This document shows, in pieces, positions 1-19,469 of a stretch of DNA of 64,000 nucleotides. Each line of letters begins with the position of its first letter. The first letter of the stretch is position 1. This DNA is from Crossaster papposus (lineage: Eukaryota; Echinodermata; Asteroidea; Velatida; Solasteridae), in assembly GCA_037893245.1 (NCBI GenBank), contig JBAIAA010000117.1, forward strand, positions 1,178,001 to 1,242,000, written 5' to 3'. Under the pieces are notes generated by a model, which had not been told where the DNA came from, searched no databases, and saw nothing but the letters and a program-made list of their open reading frames with translations. Position numbers and translations under genes: made by a program.

Positions 1-2951
1 TTCTCCTGCTGCTGCTTCAGCGCAGGCCGATGGTGGCTCCAGATGTGGCAATATTCCACCTTATTCTTCTGCTGCTGCTTCTTCAGTACAGGTTGATGTT
101 GACTCAAGAGGTGGAAATATTCCACCTTATTCTTCTCCTGCTGCTTCAGCGCAGGTTGATGTTGGCTCAAGATGTGACGACATTCATCTTCATTCTTCTG
201 CTGTTGCTGCTTCAGTGCAGGTTGATGTTGGTTCCGGATGTAGTAATATTTCACCTTATTTTTCTCCTGCTGCTTCAGCGCAGATTGCGGTTGGCCCGAG
301 ATGTGACAATATTCCACCTTGTTCTTCTCCTGCTGCTTCAGCGCAGGTTGATGTTGGCTCCAGATGTGGCAATAATCCACCTTATTCTTATCCTGCTGCT
401 GCTTCAGCGGAGGCCGATGGTGGCTCCAGATGTGGAAATATTCCACCTTATTCTTCTGCTGCTGCTACTTCAGCGCAGGTTGATGTTGGCTCTAGATGTG
501 GCAATATTCCACCTTATTCTTCTGCTGCTGCTGCTTCAGCGCAGCTTGATGTTGGAGATGTTGCAATAATCCACTATATTCTTCTCCTGCTGCTTCAGCG
601 CAGGTTGATGTTGGCTCCAGATCTGGCAATATTCCACCTTATTCTTCTCCTGCTGCTTCAGGGCAGGTTGATGTTCGCTCCAGATGTGGCAATATTCCAC
701 CTTATTCTTCTGCTGCTTCAGGGCAGGTTCATGTTGGCTCCCGATGTGGCAATATTCCACCTTATTCTTCTCCTGCTGCTGCTTCAGCGCAGTTTGAGGT
801 TGGACCGAGATGTGACAATATTCCACCTTGTTCTTCTCCTGCTGCTTCAGCGCAGGTTGATGTTGGCTCCAGATGTGGCAATAATCCACCTTATTCTTCT
901 CATGCTGCTGCTTCAGCGCAGGCCGATGGTGGCTCCAGATGTGGCAATATTCCACCTTATTCTTATGTAGCAATATTCCACCTTATTCTTCTGCTGCTGC
1001 TTCAGCGCAGGTTGATGTTGGCTCCCGATGTGGCAATATTCCACCTTATTCTTCTGCTGCTGCTGCTTCGGCGCAGGTTGATGTTGGCTCCAGATGTGGC
1101 AATAATCCACCTTATTCTTATGTGGCAATATTCCACCTTATTCTTCTGCTGCTGCTTCAGCGCAGGTTGATGTTGGCTCCCGATGTGGCAATAATCCACA
1201 TTACTCTTCTCCTGCTGCTGCTTCAGCGCAGGACGATGGTGGCTCCAGATGTGGAAATATTCCACCTTATTGTTCTGCTGCTGCTACTTCAGCGCAGGTT
1301 GATGTTGCCTCCAGATGTGGCAATATTCCACCTTATTCTTCTGCTGCTGCTGATTCAGCGCAGGTTGATGTTGGCTCCAGATGTGGCAATATTTCACTTT
1401 ATTCTTCTGCTGCTGCTTCAGCGCAGCTTGATGGTGGAGATGTTGCAATAATCCACTCTATTCTTCTCCTGCTGCTTCAGCGCAGGTTGATGTTGGCTCC
1501 CGATGTGGCAATATTCCACCATATTCTTCTGCTGCTGCTGCTTCAGCGCAGGTTGATGTTGGCTCCAGATGTGGCAATAATCCACCTTTATTCTTCTCCT
1601 GCTGATGCTTCAGCGCAGGCCGATGGTGGCTCCAGATGTGGCAATATTCCACATTATTCTTCTTTTGCTGCTTCAGGGCAGGTTGATGTTCGCTCTAGAT
1701 GTGGCAATATTCCACCTTATTCTTCTTCTGCTGCTTCAGGGCAGGTTGATGTTGGCTCCAGATGTGGCAATAGTCCACCTTATTCTTCTCCTGCTGCTGC
1801 TTCAGCGCAGTTACGGGGTTGGCCCGAGATGTTGCAATAATCCACTCTATTCTTCTCCTGCTGCTTCAGCGCAGGTTGATGTTGGCTCCGGATGTGGCAA
1901 TATTCCACCTTATTCTTCTGCTGCTGCTGCTTCAGCGCATGTTGATGTTGGCTCCAGATGTGGCAATATTCCACCTTATTCTTCTGCTGCTGCTTCAGCG
2001 CAGCTTGATGTTGGAGATGTTGCAATTATCCACTCTATTTTTCTCCTGCTGCTTCAGCGCAGGTTGATGTTGGCTCCGGATGTGGTAATAATCCACCTTA
2101 TTCTTCTCCTGCTGCTGCTTCAGCGCAGGCCGATGGTGGCTCCAGATGTGGCAATATTCCACCTTATTCTTCTGCTGCTGCTTCTTCAGTACAGGTTGAT
2201 GTTGACTCAAGAGGTGGAAATATTCCACCTTATTCTTCTCCTGCTGCTTCAGCGCAGGTTGATGTTGGCTCCAGATGTGACGACATTCCTCTTCATTCTT
2301 CTGCTGTTGCTGCTTCAGTGCAGGTTGATGTTGGTTCCGGATGTAGTAATATTTCACCTTATTTTTCTCCTGCTGCTTCAGCGCAGATTGCGGTTGGCCC
2401 GAGATGTTACAATATTCCACCTTGTTCTTCTCCTGCTGCTTCAGCGCAGGTTGATGTTGGCTCCAGATGTGGCAATAATCCACCTTATTCTTATCCTGCT
2501 GCTGCTTCAGCGGAGGCCGATGGTGGCTCCAGATGTGGAAATATTCCACCTTATTCTTCTGCTGCTGCTACTTCAGCGCAGGTTGATGTTGGCTCTAGAT
2601 GTGGCAATATTCCACCTTATTCTTCTGCTGCTGCTGCTTCAGCGCAGCTTGATGTTGGAGATGTTGCAATAATCCACTATATTCTTCTCCTGCTGCTTCA
2701 GCGCAGGTTGATGTTGGCTCCAGATCTGGCAATATTCCACCTTATTCTTCTCCTGCTGCTTCAGGGCAGGTTGATGTTCGCTCCAGATGTGGCAATATTC
2801 CACCTTATTCTTCTGCTGCTTCAGGGCAGGTTCATGTTGGCTCCCGATGTGGCAATATTCCACCTTATTCTTCTCCTGCTGCTGCTTCAGCGCAGTTTGA
2901 GGTTGGACCGAGATGTGACAATATTCCACCTTGTTCTTCTCCTGCTGCTTC
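1..2951. repeat. Duplicated satellite block, offset 2103 bp
   Basis: Bases 1-848 match about 2104-2951 almost exactly, including a run of special units (GTACAGG, GACGACATTC, TAGTAATATTT, GCAGATTGCGGTTGG). The match stops where one copy continues TTCAGCGCAGG and the other TTCAGGGCAGG. Only part of the left copy lies in the window. Confidence 0.75.
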
Positions 2952-5900
2952 AGGGCAGGTTGATGTTGGCTCCAGATGTGGCAATATTCCACCTTATTCT
3001 TCTCCTGCTGCTTCAGGGCAGGTTGATGTTTGCTCCAGATGTGGCAATATTCCACCTGATTCTTATCCTGCTGCTGCTTCAGCGGAGGCCGATGGTGGCT
3101 CCAGATGTGGAAATAATCCATCTTATTCTTCTGCTGCTGCTACTTCAGCGCAGGTTGATGTTGGCTCCAGATGTGGCAATATTCCACCTTATTCTTCTCC
3201 TGCTGCTTCAGGGCAGGTTCATGTTGGCTCCAGATGTGGCAATATTCCACCTTATTCTTCTCCTGCTGCTTCAGGGCAGGTTCATGTTGGCTCCAGATGT
3301 GGCAATAATCCATCTTATTATTCTCCTGCTGCTGCTTCAGCGCAGGCCGATGGTGGCTCCACATGTGGCAATATTTCACCTTATTCTTCTGCTGCCGCGG
3401 CTTCAGCGCAGGTTGATGTTGGATATGTTGCAATAATCCACTCTATTCTTCTCCTGCTGCTTCAGGACAGGTTGATGTTCACGCCAGATGTGGCAATATT
3501 CCACCTTATTCTTCTCCTGCTGCTTCAGGGCAGGTTCATGTTGGCTCCAGATATGGCAATAATCCACCTTATTCTTCTCCTGCTGCTGCTTCAGCGCAGG
3601 CCGATGGTGGCTCCAGATGTGGCAATATTCCACCTTATTTTTTTGCTGCTGCTACTTCAGCGCAGGTTGATGTTGGCTCCAGATGTGGCAATATTCCACC
3701 TTATTCTTCTGCTGCTGCTGCTTCAGCGCAGCTTGATGTTGGAGATGTTGCAATAATCCACTCTATTCTTCTCCTGCTGCTTCAGCGCAGGTTGATGTTG
3801 GCTCCCGATGTGGCAATATCCCACCTTATTCTTCGGCTGCTGCTGCTTTAGCGCAGGTTGGTGTTGGCTCCAGATGTGGCAATAATCCACCTTATTCTTT
3901 TCCTGCTGCTGCTTCAGCGCAGGCCGATGGTGGCTCCAGATGTGGCAATATTCTACCTTATTCTTCTGCTGGTGCTACTTCAGCGCAGGTTGATGTTGGC
4001 TCCAGATGTGGCAATATTCCACCTTGTTTTTCTGCTGCTGCTGCTTCAGCGCAGGTTGATGTTGGAGATGTTGCAATAATCCACTATATTCTTCTCCTGC
4101 TGCTTCACCGCAGGTTGATGTTGGCTCCAGATGTGACGACATTCCTCTTCATTCTTCTGCTGCTGCTGCTTCAGTGCAGGTTGATGTTGGTTCCAGATGT
4201 AGTAATATTTCACCTTATTTTTCTCCTGCTGCTTCGAGCAGGTTGCTGTTGGCTCCAGATGTGGCAATATTCCACCTTATTCTTCTCCTGCTGCTTCAGG
4301 GCAGGTTGATGTTCGCTCCAGATGTGGCAATATTCCACATGATTCTTCTCCTGCTGCTGCTTCACCGGAGGCCGATGGTGGCTCCAGATGTGGCAATAAT
4401 CCACCTTATTCTTCTGCTGCTGCTACTTCAGCGCAGGTTGATGTTGGCTCCAGATGTGGCAATATTCCACCTTATTCTTATGCTTCTGCTTCAGGGCAGG
4501 TTGATGTTCACTCCAGATGTGGCAGTATTCCACCTTATTCTTCTCCTGCTGCTTCAGGGCAGGTTCATGTTGGCTCCAGATGTGGCAATAATCCACCTTA
4601 TTATTATCCTGCTGCTGCTTCAGCGCAGGCCGATGGTGGCTCCAGATGTGGCAATATTCCACCTTATTCTTCTGCTGCTGCTTCTTCAGCGCAGGTTGAT
4701 GTTGGCTCCACATGTGGCAATATTTCACCTTATTCTTCTCCTGCTGATGCTTCAGCGCAGGCCGATGGTGGCTCCAGATGTGGCAATATTCCACATTATT
4801 CTTCTCCTGCTGCTTCAGGGCAGGTTGATGTTCGCTCTAGATGTGGCAATATTCCACCTTATTCTTCTCCTGCTGCTTCAGCGCAGGTTGATGTTGGCTC
4901 CAGATGTGGCAATAATCCACCTTATTCTTCTCCTGCTGCTGCTTCAGCGCAGGCCGATGGTGGCTCCAGATGTGGCAATATTCCACCTTATTCTTATGTG
5001 GCAATATTCCACCTTATTCTTCTGCTGCTGCTTCAGCGCAGGTTGATGTTGGCTCCCGATGTGGCAATATTCCACCTTATTCTTCTGCTACTGCTGCTTC
5101 GGCGCAGGTTGATGTTGGCTCCAGATGTGGCAATAATCCACCTTATTCTTCTCCTGCTGCTGCTTCAGGGCAGGTTGATGTTCGCTCCAGATGTGGCAAT
5201 ATTCCACCTGATTCTTCTCCTGCTGCTACTTCAGCGCAGGTTGATGTTGCCTCCAGATGTGGCAATATTCCACCTTATTCTTCTGCTGCTGCTGCTTCAG
5301 CGCAGGTTGATGTTGGAGATGTTGCAACAATCCACTCTATTCTTCTCGTGCTGCTTCAGGGCAGGTTGATGTTCGCTCCAGATGTGGCAATATTCCACCT
5401 TATTCTTCTCCTGCTGCTTCAGGGCAGGTTGATGTTGGCTCCAGATGTGGCAATATTCCACCTTATTCTTCTGCTGCTGCTGCTTCATCGCAGGTTGATG
5501 TTGGGTTCAGATGTGACGACATTCCACTTCATTCTTCTTCTACTGCTGCTGCTGCTTCAGTGCAGGTTGATGTTGGCTCCAAATGTAGTAAAATTTCACC
5601 ATGTTTTTCTCCTGTTGCTTCGAACATGTTCGTGTTGGCTCCAGATGTGGCAATATTCCACCTTATTCTTCTCCTGCTGCTTCAGGGCATGTTCATGTTG
5701 GCACCAGGTGTGGCAATATTCCACCTTATCTTTCTCCTGCTGCTGCTTCAGCGCAGCTTGGGGTTGGCCCGAGATGTGACAATATTCCACCTTGTTCTTC
5801 TTCTGCTGCTTCAGGGCAGGTTCATGTTGGCTCCAGATGTGGCAATATTCCACCTTATTCTTCTCCTGCTGCTGCTTCAGCGCAGTTTGGGGTTGGCCCA

Positions 5901-8900
5901 AGATGTGACAATATTCCACCTTATTTTTCTCCTGCTGCTTCAGGGCAGGTTCATGTTGGCTCCAGATGTGGCAATATTCCGCCTTATTCTTCTCCTGCTG
6001 CTGCTTCAGCGCAGTTTGGGGTTGGCCCGAGATGTGACAATATTCCACCTTTTTTTTCTCCTGCTGCTTCAGGGCAGGTTCATGTTGGCTCCAGATGTGA
6101 CGACATTCCTCTTCATTCTGCTGCTGCTGCTGCTTCAGTGCATGTTGATGTTGGTTCCAGATGTAGTAATATTTCACCTTATTTTTCTCCTGCTGCTTCG
6201 AGCAGGTTGCTGTTGGCTCCAGATGTGGCAATATTCCACCTTATTCTTCTCCTGCTGCTTCAGGGCAGGTTGATGTTCGCTCCAGATGTGGCAATATTCC
6301 ACCTGATTCTTATCCTGCTGCTGCTTCAGCGGAGGCCGATGGTGGCTCCAGATGTGGCAATAATCCACCTTATTCTTCTGCTGCTGCTACTTCAGCGCAG
6401 GTTGATGTTGGCCCCAGATGTGGCAATATTCCACCTTATTCTTCTGCTGCCGCGGCTTCAGCGCAGGTTGATGTTGGATATGTTGCAATAATCCACTATA
6501 TTCTTCTCCTGCTGCTTCAGGACAGGTTGATGTTCACGCCAGATGTGGCAATAATCCACCTTATTCTTATCCTGCTGCTGCTTCAGCGGAGGCCGATGGT
6601 GGCTCCAGATGTGGAAATATTCCACCTTATTCTTCTGCTGCTGCTACTTCAGCGCAGGTTGATGTTGGCTCTAGATGTGGCAATATTCCACCTTATTCTT
6701 CTGCTGCTGCTGCTTCAGCGCAGCTTGATGTTGGAGATGTTGCAATAATCCACTATATTCTTCTCCTGCTGCTTCAGCGCAGGTTGATGTTGGCTCCAGA
6801 TCTGGCAATATTCCACCTTATTCTTCTCCTGCTGCTTCAGGGCAGGTTGATGTTCGCTCCAGATGTGGCAATATTCCACCTTATTCTTCTGCTGCTTCAG
6901 GGCAGGTTCATGTTGGCTCCCGATGTGGCAATATTCCACCTTATTCTTCTCCTGCTGCTGCTTCAGCGCAGTTTGAGGTTGGACCGAGATGTGACAATAT
7001 TCCACCTTGTTCTTCTCCTGCTGCTTCAGGGCAGGTTGATGTTGGCTCCAGATGTGGCAATATTCCACCTTATTCTTCTCCTGCTGCTTCAGGGCAGGTT
7101 GATGTTTGCTCCAGATGTGGCAATATTCCACCTGATTCTTATCCTGCTGCTGCTTCAGCGGAGGCCGATGGTGGCTCCAGATGTGGAAATAATCCATCTT
7201 ATTCTTCTGCTGCTGCTACTTCAGCGCAGGTTGATGTTGGCTCCAGATGTGGCAATATTCCACCTTATTCTTCTCCTGCTGCTTCAGGGCAGGTTCATGT
7301 TGGCTCCAGATGTGGCAATATTCCACCTTATTCTTCTCCTGCTGCTTCAGGGCAGGTTCATGTTGGCTCCAGATGTGGCAATAATCCATCTTATTATTCT
7401 CCTGCTGCTGCTTCAGCGCAGGCCGATGGTGGCTCCACATGTGGCAATATTTCACCTTATTCTTCTGCTGCCGCGGCTTCAGCGCAGGTTGATGTTGGAT
7501 ATGTTGCAATAATCCACTCTATTCTTCTCCTGCTGCTTCAGGACAGGTTGATGTTCACGCCAGATGTGGCAATATTCCACCTTATTCTTCTCCTGCTGCT
7601 TCAGGGCAGGTTCATGTTGGCTCCAGATATGGCAATAATCCACCTTATTCTTCTCCTGCTGCTGCTTCAGCGCAGGCCGATGGTGGCTCCAGATGTGGCA
7701 ATATTCCACCTTATTTTTCTGCTGCTGCTACTTCAGCGCAGGTTGATGTTGGCTCCAGATGTGGCAATATTCCACCTTATTCTTCTGCTGCTGCTGCTTC
7801 AGCGCAGCTTGATGTTGGAGATGTTGCAATAATCCACTCTATTATTCTCCTGCTGCTTCAGCGCAGGTTGATGTTGGCTCCCGATGTGGCAATATCCCAC
7901 CTTATTCTTCGGCTGCTGCTGCTTTAGCGCAGGTTGGTGTTGGCTCCAGATGTGGCAATAATCCACCTTATTCTTTTCCTGCTGCTGCTTCAGCGCAGGC
8001 CGATGGTGGCTCCAGATGTGGCAATATTCTACCTTATTCTTCTGCTGGTGCTACTTCAGCGCAGGTTGATGTTGGCTCCAGATGTGGCAATATTCCACCT
8101 TGTTTTTCTGCTGCTGCTGCTTCAGCGCAGGTTGATGTTGGAGATGTTGCAATAATCCACTATATTCTTCTCCTGCTGCTTCACCGCAGGTTGATGTTGG
8201 CTCCAGATGTGACGACATTCCTCTTCATTCTTCTGCTGCTGCTGCTTCAGTGCAGGTTGATGTTGGTTCCAGATGTAGTAATATTTCACCTTATTTTTCT
8301 CCTGCTGCTTCGGGCAGGTTGCTGTTGGCTCCAGATGTGGCAATATTCCACCTTATTCTTCTCCTGCTGCTTCAGGGCAGGTTGATGTTCGCTCCAGATG
8401 TGGCAATATTCCACATGATTCTTCTCCTGCTGCTGCTTCACCGGAGGCCGATGGTGGCTCCAGATGTGGCAATAATCCACCTTATTCTTCTGCTGCTGCT
8501 ACTTCAGCGCAGGTTGATGTTGGCTCCAGATGTGGCAATATTCCACCTTATTCTTATGCTTCTGCTTCAGGGCAGGTTGATGTTCACTCCAGATGTGGCA
8601 GTATTCCACCTTATTCTTCTCCTGCTGCTTCAGGGCAGGTTCATGTTGGCTCCAGATGTGGCAATAATCCACCTTATTATTATCCTGCTGCTGCTTCAGC
8701 GCAGGCCGATGGTGGCTCCAGATGTGGCAATATTCCACCTTATTCTTCTGCTGCTGCTTCTTCAGCGCAGGTTGATGTTGGCTCCACATGTGGCAATATT
8801 TCACCTTATTCTTCTCCTGCTGATGCTTCAGCGCAGGCCGATGGTGGCTCCAGATGTGGCAATATTCCACATTATTCTTCTCCTGCTGCTTCAGGGCAGG

Positions 8901-9890
8901 TTGATGTTCGCTCTAGATGTGGCAATATTCCACCTTATTCTTCTCCTGCTGCTTCAGCGCAGGTTGATTTTGGCTCCAGATGTGGCAATAATCCACCTTA
9001 TTCTTCTCCTGCTGCTGCTTCAGCGCAGGCCGATGGTGGCTCCAGATGTGGCAATATTCCACCTTATTCTTATGTGGCAATATTCCACCTTATTATTCTG
9101 CTGCTGCTTCAGCGCAGGTCGATGTTGGCTCCCGATGTGGCAATATTCCACCTTATTCTTCTGCTGCTGCTGCTTCGGCGCAGGTTGATGTTGGCTCCAG
9201 ATGTGGCAATAATCCACCTTATTCTTCTCCTGCTGCTGCTTCAGGGCAGGTTGATGTTCGCTCCAGATGTGGCAATATTCCACCTGATTCTTCTCCTGCT
9301 GCTACTTCAGCGCAGGTTGATGTTGCCTCCAGATGTGGCAATATTCCACCTTATTCTTCTGCTGCTGCTGCTTCAGCGCAGGTTGATGTTGGAGATGTTG
9401 CAACAATCCACTCTATTCTTCTCGTGCTGCTTCAGGGCAGGTTGATGTTCGCTCCAGATGTGGCAATATTCCACCTTATTCTTCTCCTGCTGCTTCAGGG
9501 CAGGTTGATGTTGGCTCCAGATGTGGCAATATTCCACCTTATTCTTCTGCTGCTGCTGCTTCATCGCAGGTTGATGTTGGGTTCAGATGTGACGACATTC
9601 CACTTCATTCTTCTTCTACTGCTGCTGCTGCTTCAGTGCAGGTTGATGTTGGCTCCAAATGTAGTAAAATTTCACCATGTTTTTCTCCTGTTGCTTCGAA
9701 CATGTTCGTGTTGGCTCCAGATGTGGCAATATTCCACCTTATTATTCTCCTGCTGCTTCAGGGCATGTTCCTGTTGGCTCCAGATGTGGCAATATTCCAC
9801 CTTATCCTTCTCCTGCTGCTGCTTCAGCGCAGCTTGGGGTTGGCCCGAGATGTGACAATATTCCACCTTGTTCTTCTTCTGCTGCTTCAG
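2463..9890. repeat. Two copies of a 3.35-kb satellite block, offset 4076 bp
   Basis: About 2463-5814 and 6539-9890 correspond base for base at an offset of 4076, with few differences. Examples are TTATTTTTTTGCTG against TTATTTTTCTGCTG near 3640/7716, and GGCACCAGGTG against GGCTCCAGATG near 5700/9776. Rare units such as the ATTCTACCTTATTC and CTTTAGCGCAGGTTGGTG types are shared, so this is a recent segmental duplication rather than parallel drift. Confidence 0.8.
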
Positions 9891-12333
9891 CGCAGGTTGA
9901 TGTTGGCTCCAGATGTGGCAATATTCCACCTTATTCTTCTCCTGCTGCTTCAGGGCAGGTTGATGTTCGCTCCAGATGTGGCAATATTCCACCTTATTTT
10001 TCTGCTGCTGCTACTTCAGCGCAGGTTGATGTTGGCTCCAGATGTGGCAATATTCCACCGTATTTTTCTCCTGCTGCTTCAGGGCAGGTTCATGTTGGCT
10101 CCAGATGTGGCAATATTCCACCTTATTCTTCTCCTGCTGCTGCTTCAGCGCAGTTTGGGGTTGGCCCGAGATGTGACAATATTCCACCTTATTTTTCTCC
10201 TGCTGCTTCAGGGCAGGTTCATGTTGGCTCCAGATGTGGCAATATTCCGCCTTATTCTTCTCCTGCTGCTGCTTCAGCGCAGTTTGGGGTTGGCCCGAGA
10301 TGTGACAATATTCCACCTTTTTTTTCTCCTGCTGCTTCAGGGCAGGTTCATGTTGGCTCCAGATGTGACGACATTCCTCTTCATTCTTCTGCTGCTGCTG
10401 CTTCAGTGCATGTTGATGTTGGTTCCAGATGTAGTAATATTTCACCTTATTTTTCTCCTGCTGCTTCGAGCAGGTTGCTGTTGGCTCCAGATGTGGCAAT
10501 ATTCCACCTTATTCTTCTCCTGCTGCTTCAGGGCAGGTTGATGTTCGCTCCAGATGTGGCAATATTCCACCTGATTCTTATCCTGCTGCTGCTTCAGCGG
10601 AGGCCGATGGTGGCTCCAGATGTGGCAATAATCCACCTTATTCTTCTGCTGCTGCTACTTCAGCGCAGGTTGATGTTGGCTCCAGATGTGGCAATATTCC
10701 ACCTTATTCTTCTGCTGCCGCGGCTTCAGCGCAGGTTGATGTTGGATATGTTGCAATAATCCACTATATTCTTCTCCTGCTGCTTCAGGACAGGTTGATG
10801 TTCACGCCAGATGTGGCAATATTCCACCTTATTCTTCTCCTGCTGCTGCTTCAGCGCAAGCCGATGGTGGCTCCAGATGTGGCAATATTCCACCTTATTC
10901 TTCTGCTGCTGCTACTTCAGCGCAGGTTGATGTTGGATCCAGATGTGGCAATATTCCACCTTATTCGTATGCTTCTGCTTCAGGGCAGGTTGATGTTCAC
11001 TCCAGATGTGGCAGTATTCCACCTTATTCTTCTCCTGCTGCTTCAGGGCAGGTTCATGTTGGCTCCAGATGTGGCAATAATCCACCTTATTATTATCCTG
11101 CTGCTGCTTCAGCGCAGGCCGATGGTGGCTCCAGATGTGGCAATATTCCACCTTATTCTTGTGCTGCTGCTTCTTCAGCGCAGGTTGATGTTGGCTCCAC
11201 ATGTGGCAATATTTCACCTTATTCTTCTCCTGCTGATGCTTCAGCGCAGGCCGATGGTGGCTCCAGATGTGGCAATATTCCACATTATTCTTCTCCTGCT
11301 GCTTCAGGGCAGGTTGATGTTCGCTCTAGATGTGGCAATATTCCACCTTATTCTTCTCCTGCTGCTTCAGGGCAGGTTGATGTTGGCTCCAGATGTGGCA
11401 ATAGTCCACCTTATTCTTCTCCTGCTGCTGCTTCAGCGCAGTTACGGGGTTGGCCCGAGATTTTGCAATAATCCACTCTATTCTTCTCCTGCTGCTTCAG
11501 CGCAGGTTGATGTTGGCTCCGGATGTGGCAATATTCCACCTTATTCTTCTGCTGTTGATGCTTCAGCGCATGTTGATGTTGGCTCCAGATGTGGCAATAT
11601 TCCACCTTATTCTTCTGCTGCTGCTTCAGCGCAGTTTCATGTTGGCTCCAGATGTGGCAATATTCCACCTTATTCTTCTCCTGCTGCTGCTTCAGCGCAG
11701 TTTGGGGTTGGCCCGAGATGTGACAATATTCCACCTTATTTTTCTCCTGCTGCTTCAGGGCAGGTTCATGTTGGCTCCAGATGTGGCAATATTCCGCCTT
11801 ATTCTTCTCCTGCTGCTGCTTCAGCGCAGTTTGGGGTTGGCCCGAGATGTGACAATATTCCACCTTATTTTTCTCCTGCTGCTTCAGGGCAGGTTCATGT
11901 TGGCTCCAGATGTGACGACATTCCTCTTCATTCTTCTGCTGCTGCTGCTTCAGTGCATGTTGATGTTGGTTCCAGATGTAGTAATATTTCACCTTATTTT
12001 TCTCCTGCTGCTTCGAGCAGGTTGCTGTTGGCTCCAGATATGGCAATAATCCACCTTATTCTTCTCCTGCTGCTGCTTCAGCGCAGGCCGATGGTGGCTC
12101 CAGATGTGGCAATATTCCACCTTATTTTTCTGCTGCTGCTACTTCAGCGCAGGTTGATGTTGGCTCCAGATGTGGCAATATTCCACCTTATTCTTCTGCT
12201 GCTGCTGCTTCAGCGCAGCTTGATGTTGGAGATGTTGCAATAATCCACTCTATTCTTCTCCTGCTGCTTCAGCGCAGGTTGATGTTGGCTCCCGATGTGG
12301 CAATATCCCACCTTATTCTTCTGCTGCAGCTGC

Positions 12334-12337
12334 TTTA
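12334..12337. repeat. Target-site duplication, left copy (TTTA)
   Basis: TTTA lies immediately before the CACGGC terminus and is repeated immediately after the GCCGTG terminus at 15879-15882. Paralogous uninterrupted units read GCTGCTTTAGCGCAGG with a single TTTA, as expected for a 4-bp duplication. A 5-bp duplication is excluded because the next bases differ: C on the left versus T, or G on the right versus C. Confidence 0.85.
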
Positions 12338-12372
12338 CACGGCTGTTTCACACGTTAATAAAGTGCGCCCTC
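12338..12372 (+). repeat. Left transposon end: CACGGC, 12-bp spacer, TAATAAAGT, GCGCCCTC
   Basis: The terminus reads CACGGC (12338-12343). After 12 bp comes TAATAAAGT (12356-12364), directly followed by GCGCCCTC (12365-12372). The same three blocks, in the same order, occur on the minus strand at the other end with longer spacers. The layout recalls a recombination signal sequence of heptamer, 12-bp spacer and A-rich nonamer. If a 7-base heptamer CACGGCT is counted, the spacer is 11 bp. The 9-mer match is exact, but its role is inferred. Confidence 0.6.
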
Positions 12373-12400
12373 TGTCGTCAAAACTTTCCCGCGGCGTATA

Positions 12401-12408
12401 TGACGTCA
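12401..12408. promoter_or_regulatory. CRE-like palindrome TGACGTCA
   Basis: A full 8-bp cAMP-response-element palindrome lies 63 bp inside the left end of the element, close to the GCGCCCTC block. It may bind bZIP factors of the host. Chance occurrence cannot be excluded for a single 8-mer. Confidence 0.3.
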
Positions 12409-12835
12409 TTGTGTTTATGCACGCGCGTTGTTTACGCGATAACCTTTGACCAAATACACAGCCATTCATAAAAACACCTATTGCAGGATCTTACAGGCAT
12501 GTCATACATATTCATTGGGGTCACCATCATAAATAATAATTTATCTGACCCCACAAAGAATTTTCTAGACTGGTGCACTCCGTGAACTCCCCTTTGTGCT
12601 GATTCAATTGCGTGATCACATGGCTTTTAGAGGCGCGATAAAATTAACGGCTGTCGGAGAGACGGTTATTTTTATAAATGAAAATGTATTACAAAGTCCT
12701 TCAAATTCTCAGTGAGGACACTTCAGATGTTGCTTTCTACAATAACACCAGTGGTAAGTGCAGGACATTTTGATTTGGTTGAGGACAAGTTGGGGTGAAA
12801 ATGAGCAAGAAATTCCGTTGCTCGCGTGTACGTTT

Positions 12836-12895
12836 GCCCCCAAATCATAAACACGCACACCGTGTATGTACGTAACATGTACATGTGTTTGGGGC
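12836..12895. repeat. Imperfect inverted repeat in the transposon
   Basis: GCCCC (12836-12840) and AAACAC (12849-12854) pair with GTGTTTGGGGC (12885-12895), with an 8-bp bulge on the left arm. The loop holds further short palindromes, including ACATGTACATGT. It could be a subterminal structure or a remnant of a deleted segment. Confidence 0.35.
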
Positions 12896-13487
12896 GAGAT
12901 TGCACCGCGCGCGGTACGTGCACACAACGGTTATAATTTAAAGGTCCAAACGCATGGCGTTCGTACTGCTGGGTATTACTGGGCCTAAAATACGTTGTTG
13001 CATGGACATGGTTCATCTATAAAATTCATTTCGTGGTCTGTAAACGTTAGGCCTATTCTGTTTTCAGCACGAAAGATCAATAACATTAAAAATAACATGT
13101 TAAACTTTCAAGAATACACATTGGCCATTGCATTTAAAATTGTTAAAATGTTACTGTTACTAGTAAAAACTAAAATGAAATGGGTCAACTTGTGTACGAG
13201 TTTATCTAGTCTACGAGTACGACTAGGAGTACGGGAATAGGGACATCATGTATGTAGATTATCCTTCAGTAGCTCATCTTGTTCTTTTCTCATTTTCCGT
13301 TCAGAACATATTGGGGTCTGGCTGGTACTCTTCATGTATCTGTTATACAAATAACAAACAAATGTTTTGAATGCATGTACAATGTAGTAGCTAGTTTAGT
13401 TACTATTTTTAAACTTAAATGTATTTGTGTTATAAGTTTGCAGTTTATGTACTACGCCTGTATATTGTATGTAACATGTCTAATTAC

Positions 13488-13753
13488 CGTCTGAATTTCC
13501 TCATTTGGTTCCAACCCAGGTGGCAGTCTTGCATCATGGCTAAAGCACCATCAGCAGTTGAAGTTGTGTGGTGGTTGGTCTGTGACGAACTGGATGGCAG
13601 ACACTGGTTTTCATCGTCCTGCTGGATTTCGGGAGCTCCTTTGCTGATATTTTGCCGGAAAGCTGCTATTGCAACAGTTCGTTGTCTCTTGTATGAGGTG
13701 GAGATATTTTTACTTGACTTTGATGGCTTAGTCACCTTTTGAATATGAGCAGG
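13488..13753 (-). CDS. RAG1 N-terminal-like protein, exon 2 (GGRP motif across the junction)
   Basis: This exon is inferred from a strong acceptor, a pyrimidine-rich TTTTTCTCCCAG, whose phase 0 matches exon 1. Joining exon 1 (ending TGGR) to this exon (starting PAHIQK) creates GGRP. In RAG1 the GGRPR motif, an AT-hook-like element, opens the nonamer-binding domain at the same relative place. The rest is basic and serine/threonine/glutamine-rich (KPSKSSKN, YKRQR, SSSSQTN) and ends with GALAMMQDCHLGWNQMRKFRR. A TAA follows directly, but the sequence there, ACG|GTAATT, can also be a donor. The protein therefore either ends here at about 448 residues (440 from the second ATG) or continues. I could not identify a third exon with confidence. 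Confidence 0.65.
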
Positions 13754-14049
13754 CTGGGAGAAAAATGATGCATTAAAAAAACAATTGGTTTTTTTAAACG
13801 ACACAGACCTGATCCTTCCTCGATCACTCTAAATGTCGTGTGTTTTGAAATTTTAAAATGGAATGAACTCGACTAAAGTCTAAAGTAAACAGAAGGAAAA
13901 AAAGTGAAATGAAATAATATTCATAAAATAAAATATTAATGAAATTTAATATTTACGAGATAAAATGGTATGCGATATTGTGTTACCTTATACAGTATCT
14001 TGAAATCATGTTAATTTATGTGTAAGGTAATGCCCATGTGTGTACTTAC
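13754..14049 (-). other. Intron in the RAG1-N-like gene (GT-AG, 296 bp)
   Basis: On the minus strand the donor is CGA|GTAAGT (GT at 14049-14048) and the acceptor TTTTTCTCCCAG|CC (AG at 13755-13754). Both follow phase 0. The intron is AT-rich, with runs such as AAATATTAATGAAATTTAATATT on the plus strand, in contrast to the exons. It contains no coding pattern of its own. The model is supported by the GGRP motif formed by splicing, but there is no transcript evidence. Confidence 0.65.
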
Positions 14050-15126
14050 TCGACCTCCAGTTCGTATGGGTGTGGCCATTCCTGGCTGGGCATTTTGAAG
14101 CTTGAGCCACACCCACTTGTCAGTGGCCTCTTCGATTTCAGTGGGAATCGGTTTGCCAGATTCGTGCGTTTGAGCCAGACGTTTGAGTAAACGGGCCGCA
14201 TTGGTTGGGCTTAGAATTTCAGGCTGCTCTTTCATTGGGCTTACTGGCCATTGTGATGAAGAGGCAACGGATGAGTGTTTAGCGAACTTAACTTGACAGT
14301 CGTGATGCAGTAATCGTTGAACTTTGCCAATATCGTTACACCTGGTACAGATTACATTCAGGTTTTCCAGCTGAAACCTGAGAACCCTGGGACTTTCAGT
14401 TACATCTTGAAATCTGATTTTTTGATTGCATATGGGGCAGTTTATTACTTCATTTGTTGCATACCTGTAACACAGTGTCAAACATCTTGCACAGTAATTG
14501 TGTTGGCATGGTGTTTGTACACAAGGTTGTCCAATGATGCAAAGGCAAATTCCACATGTGAAGAGTGACTGCTCCCAATCATGACCAATGATGTCAAATT
14601 CGACGGGGTATTCAATTTCAAAAGTGTCCGTTTTCACAGTTACATGCTGGAAGATGTTTCCTTCAATCAGTGAAAAGGGGAGAGGAGGAGAGGGGCTGCG
14701 ACTTTGTGAAGCTTTTGGTCTGCCACGCTTAGGTTTGCACTGTACATGTGATCCTGCTGAAATTTGTTCATTGTACAAATCACAGACGAAACAGTGGCCA
14801 GTTCTTGTATGCTTTGGCCAAGTTCTTTGAATAGGCTGCGTTCTACTCAAAGTGCTCAGAGTGTAACACCTCGTATCACTTCTACAGTGCCTTAATTTTC
14901 TGCAGCACTTTTCGCACAAATTTGATGGATGCTGATCCACACTGTCCTCCCAGGTACTTATTTCATAGATGCTAAACAACTCCTTTCTGTACTCACGCAC
15001 TAATGATATTTTACTCCTGCTTCCACGAAGAGTAATTTTAATTCTGTTCGCACAAACTCTGCAGATCTTTCCGAGTGCGTCTTGGTGGAATTTAAAACTC
15101 ATGACACTGATAAAACTTTGAATCAT
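14050..15126 (-). CDS. RAG1 N-terminal-like protein, exon 1 (zinc clusters, AT-hook, RING finger)
   Basis: The exon has 359 open codons ending at a GTAAGT donor. Residues counted from the first ATG: C22/C25 and H66/C71/C74 form a RAG1-type N-terminal cluster; the context CRVCAN and DSVDQHPSNLC resembles CRICGN and HPTEFC in vertebrate RAG1. C112/C115 is a third cluster. KRGRPK (133-138) is a canonical AT-hook. C191-x2-C194-x12-C207-x-H209-x2-C212-x2-C215-x14-C230-x2-C233 is a complete C3HC4 RING, followed by C260/C263 with H274/H275/C277, like the RAG1 zinc finger A. In RAG1 this region gives ubiquitin-ligase activity and dimerisation. Here a role in DNA binding or regulating transposition is inferred. 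An in-frame TAA lies four codons before the first ATG, which has poor context (T at -3). The second ATG at 15102 (residue 9) has G at -3 and may be the real start. Reading into the intron would add only 12 codons before a stop. Confidence 0.85.
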
Positions 15127-15133
15127 CCATGTA

Positions 15134-15142
15134 CTTTATATA
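15134..15142 (-). promoter_or_regulatory. TATA-like box before the RAG1-N-like gene
   Basis: TATATAAAG on the minus strand lies only 7 bp before the first ATG (15126). If it acts as a TATA box, transcription would start about 30 bp downstream, past the first ATG and just before the second (15102). A weak initiator-like TCAGTG with its A at 15108 fits loosely. That would give a very short 5' leader, so either the second ATG is used or the TATA match is accidental and an upstream exon exists. Confidence 0.3.
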
Positions 15143-15225
15143 ACGCTTACTAAAACTTAAGAATAACCCTCTTGAGAGAGAACAAAAACATTTCGCCTAG
15201 TGTGGTTTTTGGGAGCAACCGGTGA

Positions 15226-15286
15226 GACAACTCGACCGCGCGACACGCAATACCGCACACTACACGCTGTACACAGTCGAGTTGTC
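15226..15286. repeat. Perfect 11-bp inverted repeat
   Basis: GACAACTCGAC at 15226-15236 is the exact reverse complement of GTCGAGTTGTC at 15276-15286, separated by 39 bp. It lies about 100-160 bp upstream of the gene start. It could form a hairpin, or be a paired binding site for a dimeric DNA-binding protein such as the element's own product. Function is unknown. Confidence 0.6.
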
Positions 15287-15813
15287 CCACATTGCGTTGT
15301 TTTGTATTGCCCGCCGTTTCCGATTGTATCGCTGGTATCCGCCAACGAGCGCGCTAACTTAATGCGTCGATGGGAGCCAACACGGGACGACGTGTGAACG
15401 TCCGCGCGAATTTGGATTTGCGGGGTTCCGGGGCACATTTAACAAGGCTAAACAAACTATTTAACAAAATGTCCCACATTTTTATATATTATAAACGTAT
15501 AGTAAATGTCATTAACTTTACTGGTATGAATTTATACCGAAGGATTGAACTTTGTTTTGTTTTTACGAGTCATTTTCAAGAGCCGATAATTATTTAACGA
15601 ACGTTACGACCGATGCAATAATGTATCCAAAAGTCCTCAAAATCTGTTCTGTGTAAATATTATGCATATGCACGAGTGAAAAGTCTGTTCATTGTTAAGC
15701 TTTTATAATTTAAACTGTTTTTTAAAGTCCTTGTTACGTTTTTTATCAATTTTTACATTGTAATTAGGCGACCCTGGGCGCCGCCATCTTTGATTGGATT
15801 TTAAAAAACTATT

Positions 15814-15878
15814 GAGGGCGCTGCAGCGAGCGCTCTTTACTTTATTAGCACACATCCTATGCGCGCGGATATGCCGTG
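15814..15878 (-). repeat. Right transposon end: CACGGC, 25-bp spacer, TAATAAAGT, then GCGCCCTC
   Basis: On the minus strand the terminus reads CACGGC (15878-15873). A 25-bp spacer follows, then TAATAAAGT (15847-15839), and further in GCGCCCTC (15821-15814). The spacer is 13 bp longer than at the left end, and a further 17 bp separates the last two blocks here, where they abut on the left. The difference in the first spacer is close to that between 12- and 23-bp V(D)J signals. Outside these blocks the two ends are not alignable. Confidence 0.6.
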
Positions 15879-15882
15879 TTTA
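15879..15882. repeat. Target-site duplication, right copy (TTTA)
   Basis: This matches the TTTA at 12334-12337. The sequence after it, GCGCAGGTTGATG, is the direct continuation of the satellite unit broken on the left side. Confidence 0.85.
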
Positions 15883-16577
15883 GCGCAGGTTGATGTTGGC
15901 TCCAGATGTGGCAATAATCCACCTTATTCTTTTCCTGCTGCTGCTTCAGCGCAGGCCAATGGTGGCTCCAGATGTGGCAATATTCTACCTTATTCTTCTG
16001 CTGCTGCTACTTCAGCGCAGGTTGATGTTGGCTCCAGATGTGGCAATATTCCACCTTGTTTTTTCTGCTGCTGCTGCTTCAGCGCAGGTTGATGTTGGAG
16101 ATGTTGCAATAATCCACTATATTCTTCTCCTGCTGCTTCACCGCAGGTTGATGTTGGCTCCAGATGTGACGACATTCCTCTTCATTCTTCTGCTGCTGCT
16201 GCTTCAGTGCATGTTGATGTTGGTTCCAGATGTAGTAATATTTCACCTTATTTTTCTCCTGCTGCTTCGAGCAGGTTGCTGTTGGCTCCAGATGTGGCAA
16301 TATTCCACCTTATTCTTCTCCTGCTGCTTCAGCGCAGGTTGATGTTGGCACCAGATGTGGCAATATTCCACCTTATTCTTCTCCTGCTGCTTCAGGGCAG
16401 GTTGATGTTCGCTCCAGATGTGGCAATATTCCACCTTATTCTTCTGCTGCTTCAGGGCAGGTTCATGTTGGCTCCCGATGTGGCAATATTCCACCTTATT
16501 CTTCTCCTGCTGCTGCTTCAGCGCAGTTTGAGGTTGGCCCGAGATGTGACAATATTCCACCTTGTTCTTCTCCTGCT

Positions 16578-18462: not shown

Positions 18463-19469
18463 TCTTCTGCTGCTGCTGCTTCAGCGCAGCTTGATGTTGG
18501 AGATGTTGCAATAATCCACTATATTCTTCTCCTGCTGCTTCAGCGCAGGTTGATGTTGGCTCCCGATGTGGCAATATCCCACCTTATTCTTCTGCTGCTG
18601 CTGCTTTAGCGCAGGTTGATGTTGGCTCCAGATGTGGCAATAATCCACCTTATTCTTCTCCTGCTGCTGCTTCAGCGCAGGCCGATGGTGGCTCCAGATG
18701 TGGCAATATTATACCTTATTCTTCTGCTGCTGCTACTTCAGCGCAGGTTGATGTTGGCTCCAGATGTGGCAATATTCCACCTTGTTTTTCTGCTGCTGCT
18801 GCTTCAGCGCAGGTTGATGTTGGAGATGTTGCAATAATCCACTATATTCTTCTCCTGCTGCTTCACCGCAGGTTGATGTTGGCTCCAGATGTGACGACAT
18901 TCCTCTTCATTCTTCTGCTGCTGCTGCTTCAGTGCAGGTTGATTTTGGTTCCAGATGTAGTAATATTTCACCTTATTTTTCTCCTGCTGCTTCGAGCAGG
19001 TTGCTGTTGGCTCCAGATGTGGCAATATTCCACCTTATTCTTCTCCTGCTGCTTCACGGCAGGTTGATGTTCGCTCCAGATGTGGCAATATCCCACCTGA
19101 TTCTTCTCCTGCTGCTGCTTCAGCGGAGGCCGATGGTGGCTCCAGATGTGACAATAATCCACCTTATTCTTCTGCTGCTTCTACTTCAGCGCAGGTTGAT
19201 GTTGGCTCCAGATGTGGCAATATTTCACCTTACTCTTATCCTGCTGCTTCAGGGCAGGTTGATGTTCGCTCCAGATGTGGCAGTATTCCACCTTATTCTT
19301 CTCCTGCTGCTTCAGGGCAGGTTCATGTTGGCTCCAGATGTGGCAATAATCCACCTTATTATTATCCTGCTGCTGCTTCAGCGCAGGCCGATGGTGGCTC
19401 TAGATGTGGCAATATCCCACCTTATTCTTCTGCTGCTGCTTCTTCAGCGCAGGTTGATGTTGGCTCCAC

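Follow-up and report, generated by a model that had tools for sequence, protein, structure and literature searches.

A mobile element carrying a RAG1 N-terminal-like gene within a satellite array of Crossaster papposus

Here we describe a 3,541-bp mobile element located at positions 12338-15878 of a 64,000-nucleotide stretch of Crossaster papposus DNA (assembly GCA_037893245.1, contig JBAIAA010000117.1, positions 1,178,001 to 1,242,000, forward strand), which in its entirety is referred to as the window. The element combines a clean insertion, a 4-bp duplication, CAC/GTG ends and intact zinc ligands, and its gene is, as judged by profile comparison, a relative of the N-terminal region of RAG1 across the CND, the RING and the following zinc finger. 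Based on these features, we propose that it is probably a non-autonomous, Chapaev-like cut-and-paste transposon with one recognisable gene, coding for a RAG1 N-terminal relative that stands on its own. The element would be moved in trans, and its protein may act as an accessory factor or regulator.

Insertion into a satellite unit

The window is a satellite array, for which Tandem Repeats Finder reports a period of 66 and about 989 copies across 1-64000, and in composition (2-kb windows) 12001-16000 is the sole departure from it. The element is placed inside a 66-bp unit, and its borders are as follows.

12334..12337, no strand: left target site duplication TTTA, matching 15879-15882 and the empty sites
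12338..15878, minus strand (that of its gene): whole element, 3,541 bp, not present in the paralogous array stretches
12338..12343, plus strand: left terminus CACGGC, exact inverse of the right terminus
12356..12372, plus strand: subterminal motifs TAATAAAGT and GCGCCCTC, both recurring in inverted form near the other end (from sequence; weak)
15814..15847, minus strand: subterminal motifs TAATAAAGT (15839-15847) and GCGCCCTC (15814-15821) (from sequence; weak)
15873..15878, minus strand: right terminus GCCGTG (CACGGC on the minus strand), exact inverse of the left terminus
15879..15882, no strand: right target site duplication TTTA, matching the left copy and the empty sites

The initial annotation had proposed a clean insertion with exact borders, 6-bp inverted termini, a TTTA duplication and empty-site paralogues in the same array, all of which hold. 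Termini and direct repeats can be read directly, and the window contains only one copy each of the element's left-end 12-mer and right-end 11-mer. When the flanks are joined through a single TTTA, the resulting 120-nt empty site, compared ungapped with the array, recurs with 2 mismatches at 18549 and with 3 mismatches each at 3791 and 7867, with TTTA at the target in these three, and with 3 mismatches at four further places, these with TTCA at the target. Similarly, the joined 3-kb flanks align uninterrupted over nearly their whole length to 2687-5679 (89.3%) and 6763-9755 (89.2%), and GCTTTAGCGCAGG is present in eight other satellite units. With the site joined, the eight most frequent variants of the motif CTGC-four bases-GCGCAGG together account for 287 array units; TTCA is present in 263 of these and TTTA in 9, a count that includes the joined target. 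The insertion into this rare variant, a single event, hints at target choice.

The satellite itself is layered, with the 66-bp units recurring strongly at offsets of 2463, 5512, 4076, 3269 and 2243 bp, and it holds long stop-free frames, e.g. 482 codons at 10795-12243.

The encoded protein and its gene

Six relatives (P0001-P0006) were obtained from searches of 5.8 billion proteins; they are located on different contigs and share 32-63% identity with the window protein in the alignment. P0003 was among the matches of the first protein search and missing from the two later ones, a fish RING protein from the third search (E 0.097) was dropped, and pattern scans of viral and genome contigs contained no relative among 89 and 50 matches, respectively. 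The features of the gene, including a candidate on the opposite strand, are the following.

14755..15102, minus strand: Chapa / RAG1 CND-like zinc module, residues 1-116, the first part (about 7-79) ZAD-like (profile, Pfam and structure comparisons)
14713..14736, minus strand: AT-hook-like KPKRGRPK, residues 123-130 (sequence; GRPK kept in three of seven members)
14428..14556, minus strand: RING finger C3HC4, residues 183-225 (Pfam, profile and ligand table)
14296..14349, minus strand: C2HC zinc finger that follows the RING (residues 252-269) and takes the position of ZFA in RAG1 (alignment and ligand table)
14050..15102, minus strand: coding part of exon 1, 351 aa, RAG1-N-like (based on six relatives and on the profile match to RAG1)
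13754..14049, minus strand: predicted intron, 296 nt, donor CGA/GTAAGT, acceptor CTCCCAG/CCT (rough splice matrix; phase 0 to 0)
13484..13753, minus strand: predicted exon 2, 89 aa and stop (splice prediction; no convincing family match)
12678..12753, plus strand: candidate first exon of a convergent gene since lost, with the phase-1 donor GTG/GTAAGT (best-scoring donor of 246 on the plus strand; no family match)

With the window protein as single query, the RING part matches BRCA1, TRIM and TRAF chains ahead of RAG1. For the RAG1 N-terminal-like gene, the initial annotation had called for a profile search against RAG1, and a profile of five family members, searched against the PDB, placed full-length RAG1 first (E 8.9e-15, residues 101-386, i.e. 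the CND, the RING and the next finger). A RING-free, Chapa-only profile, built from the first 102-113 residues of all seven members, again found RAG1, with the N-terminal chain 21wb first (2.2e-8), full-length RAG1 at 6.3e-5 and a ZAD domain as the next entry (0.044). Hence, the protein cannot be regarded as just a RING protein, and the homology to the CND is independent of the RING. In agreement, the Pfam family RAG1_imp_bd matches six of the seven Chapa-only pieces (best 1.5e-7), and two of five when members are scanned whole. The RAG1 pairs C110/C113 and C175/C178, mutation of which upset CND integrity (PMC3124419), align in our reading with C14/C17 and C63/C66 of the family.

The protein thus shares with the N-terminal non-core region of RAG1 and RAG1L the order of CND zinc module, basic stretch, RING and zinc finger, and differs in the lack of the core, in about 65 extra residues between finger and exon-end GGR, and in the C2HC type of the finger. 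The zinc clusters and the RING of the initial annotation stand: all tabulated Chapa, RING and C2HC ligands are intact in the window protein, and all seven members retain C14, C17, C63, C66, C104, H98 and the eight RING ligands without change (six retain C107). The AT-hook, in contrast, is common to only three of the seven; a basic stretch takes its place in P0003, P0005 and P0006 but not in P0004. In the stretch from the C2HC finger to the end of the exon, a conserved segment (14050-14208, minus strand) reads AARLLKxLAxxHxxGxPIPxEIExxxDKWxWLKLK, and the spliced C-terminal part that holds it returned a single weak PDB match (E 0.29). The whole-exon structure model is poor (pLDDT 50.8), and with it Foldseek found no match at E <0.001.

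The gene had also been called intact. Indeed, its minus-strand frame is open for 371 codons, of which the internal methionine at 15102 represents the start common to the relatives, but exon 1 likely stops at a splice donor (14049), and the gene probably has an 89-codon second exon, as predicted from splice scoring. Using a rough matrix, the acceptor at 13753 ranks first of 192 on the minus strand and the donor fourth of 220, level with the fifth, and the predicted phase-0 join reads GGR-PAHIQKV. The read-through GGRVSTHM was rejected as natural C-terminus, VS being the donor GTAAGT read as codons. In the relatives, considering their proteins only, the last shared block is likewise followed by VS in P0001 (IRTGGR), P0003 (LKTLGR), P0004 (IRTGGT) and P0005 (IKTGGR), while P0006 differs and P0002 is too short, i.e. 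a donor-like site closes exon 1 in five of six comparable members, the window included. Predicted exon 2 has no convincing family match in Pfam. The top-scoring minus-strand donor is located at 13735, 18 nt into this exon, so the gene may splice further.

On the plus strand, an ATG-led stretch of 25 codons at 12678-12753 runs convergent to the RAG1-N gene and may be what is left of a deleted gene, namely its first exon. From the acceptors at 13068, 13305 and 13520 it would continue into frames of only 57, 16 and 42 aa, respectively, and neither the 13520 join nor the frame behind 13068 has a Pfam match.

Class of the element and competing explanations

Chapaev elements are characterized by target duplications of generally 3-4 bp and invariable CAC...GTG ends (PMC4079192), and two subgroups carry Chapa, then RING (PMC4411706). 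The element displays the TTTA duplication, the CAC...GTG termini and the Chapa-then-RING order, and differs from the Chapa-RING transposons in that no transposase family, that of the CMC group included, was found by Pfam in any of the 32 stop-to-stop element frames of at least 45 aa, making it a non-autonomous element at most. Weak matches of stray frames to HCV_core (0.018), Phage_TAC_4 (0.087), DUF2027 (0.0068), DUF3755 (0.027), Serum_albumin (0.063) and AC_N (0.083) are regarded as chance. The combination of CAC/GTG ends and a 4-bp duplication fits Chapaev and not Transib/RAG.

In the proposed mechanism, the transposase would be of CMC/Chapaev type and encoded at another genomic location; it would recognise the element ends, excise the element and insert it at a TTTA target. 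The protein of the element may enter the nucleus via its CND/ZAD-like module, bind DNA weakly via the basic stretch and, by analogy to RAG1, dimerise through the RING part. As an accessory factor, or as a ubiquitin ligase such as RAG1, it could then help, stabilise or limit the transposase. The RAG1 CND binds two zincs, is 65% nuclear and displays micromolar, non-specific DNA binding, and the bZDD fragment is mainly dimeric (PMC3124419); ubiquitin ligase activity is stated for the RAG1 RING (PMC4411706).

Several observations weigh against the proposal of a Chapaev-like element with a RAG1-N relative. The terminal inverted repeats measure only 6 bp, and those in subterminal position are weak: of up to 20,000 pairs drawn at random from the interior, 313 shared at least as many 8-mers (3). 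One copy of the element and no partner transposase were seen, and transposase relics below the reach of Pfam, or in frames shorter than 45 aa, could have escaped the scan. Moreover, the case for RAG1 homology rests on the family profile: the exon-1 protein of the window has no RAG1_imp_bd match in Pfam, its Chapa part reaches only E 0.041 with this family, below the curated cut-off, and as single sequence this part finds a ZAD chain (0.0048) before RAG1 (2.5).

Alternatively, the element may derive by deletion from a longer, autonomous transposon. The Chapa-RING part would then have fronted, or stood convergent to, a transposase gene whose internal exons have been lost, leaving the protein as a by-product or repressor. 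We consider this a serious possibility, somewhat short of even, noting that both explanations invoke a non-autonomous Chapaev-like element and overlap, such that their odds do not sum to one. It agrees with the candidate exon at 12678-12753, which has the best donor of its strand and leads nowhere recognisable, with the donor-like end of exon 1, from which the family proteins probably continue into more exons, and with the placement of Chapa-RING within Chapaev proteins (PMC4411706). Conversely, the best-scoring minus-strand acceptor yields an in-phase exon with its own stop, the zinc ligands are intact, and N-RAG-TP is likewise described as N-terminal part only (PMC8355894).

Transduplication, i.e. 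chance capture of a host RAG1-N-like gene between transposon ends, would be compatible with the single copy seen and the predicted intron, but is very unlikely given six relatives on different contigs that have diverged to 32-63% identity. Least probable, and by a wide measure improbable, is a RAG/Transib-type element after loss of the RAG1 core and a RAG2-like gene, as, despite the RAG1-N homology and the ends starting with CAC, the duplication is 4 bp rather than the 5 bp of Transib (PMC8355894), neither CACAGTG nor CACTATG is present at the ends, and Transib itself is described as having no N-terminal region (PMC7204232). No RAG1 core was found by Pfam in the frames scanned, and the spliced C-terminal part matched no RAG1 chain in the PDB.

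ZAD resemblance and the origin of the RAG1 N-terminal region

Both the family and mouse RAG1 have a first zinc module with a weak resemblance to the ZAD domain. With the zf-AD profile the window scores 17.9 bits and mouse RAG1 17.7 bits, both below the curated cut-off of 28, and the matches of all seven members are not seven independent tests, as the members are related. Ten Cys-fixed shuffles (seven family, three RAG1) gave no zf-AD match; one matched another family by chance at 3.3e-4, so single E-values near 1e-4 in that scan are not strong. Fold comparison to ZAD yields modest Z values, and the solved RAG1 N-terminal chain 21wb is absent from the structural match rows, possibly because the library ends in April 2026. 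Among the papers covered by a literature search, none combines RAG1 and ZAD, and none of the 15 titles listed from the 191 matches of a looser search links them. Speaking against the resemblance, the 16 PDB matches of mouse RAG1 101-213, used as single sequence, include no ZAD chain, and the RAG1 CND binds two zincs and is monomeric (PMC3124419), whereas ZADs bind one zinc and several dimerise. The architectures also differ, the family module being followed by a further zinc cluster and the RING, and ZAD by a C2H2 array.

At the predicted splice of the window, TGGR joined to P reads GGRP, as at the start of the nonamer-binding core of RAG1 (INKGGRPRQHL, GGRP 389-392). We tentatively raise the rather unlikely scenario in which a ZAD-type domain for nuclear import, fused to a RING, makes up the N-terminal module of RAG1 and was spread alone by Chapaev-like elements. 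Vertebrate RAG1 would then have originated when such a mobile ZAD-RING exon was joined, through splicing or exon shuffling, to a Transib core at the GGRP boundary.

Elements of the present kind are already known, as N-RAG-TP and as the Chapa-RING Chapaev transposons. N-RAG-TP of Aplysia californica was reportedly described by Panchin and Moroz in 2008. As in N-RAG-TP, a mobile element encoding a RAG1 N-terminal-like protein (PMC8355894, PMC2996935) and made entirely of RAG1-N-like sequence (PMC8355894), the recognisable coding part of our element is RAG1-N-like only, in line with the initial annotation, and the element is a further member of this kind, set beside N-RAG-TP by description only. 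For the N-terminal third of RAG1, the enzyme that rearranges antibody genes, an ancestral fusion with subsequent loss in some lineages (Kapitonov and Koonin, PMC4411706) and the joining of two transposons (the N-RAG-TP view, PMC8355894) have been put forward.

In conclusion, the clean, intact stand-alone copy and its six relatives provide a family profile with which the origin of the RAG1 N-terminal region can be tested. The resemblance to ZAD points to nuclear import as a concrete function of the module and suggests that its origin may lie outside. The element adds a clear example of how RAG1 may come from separate mobile parts.
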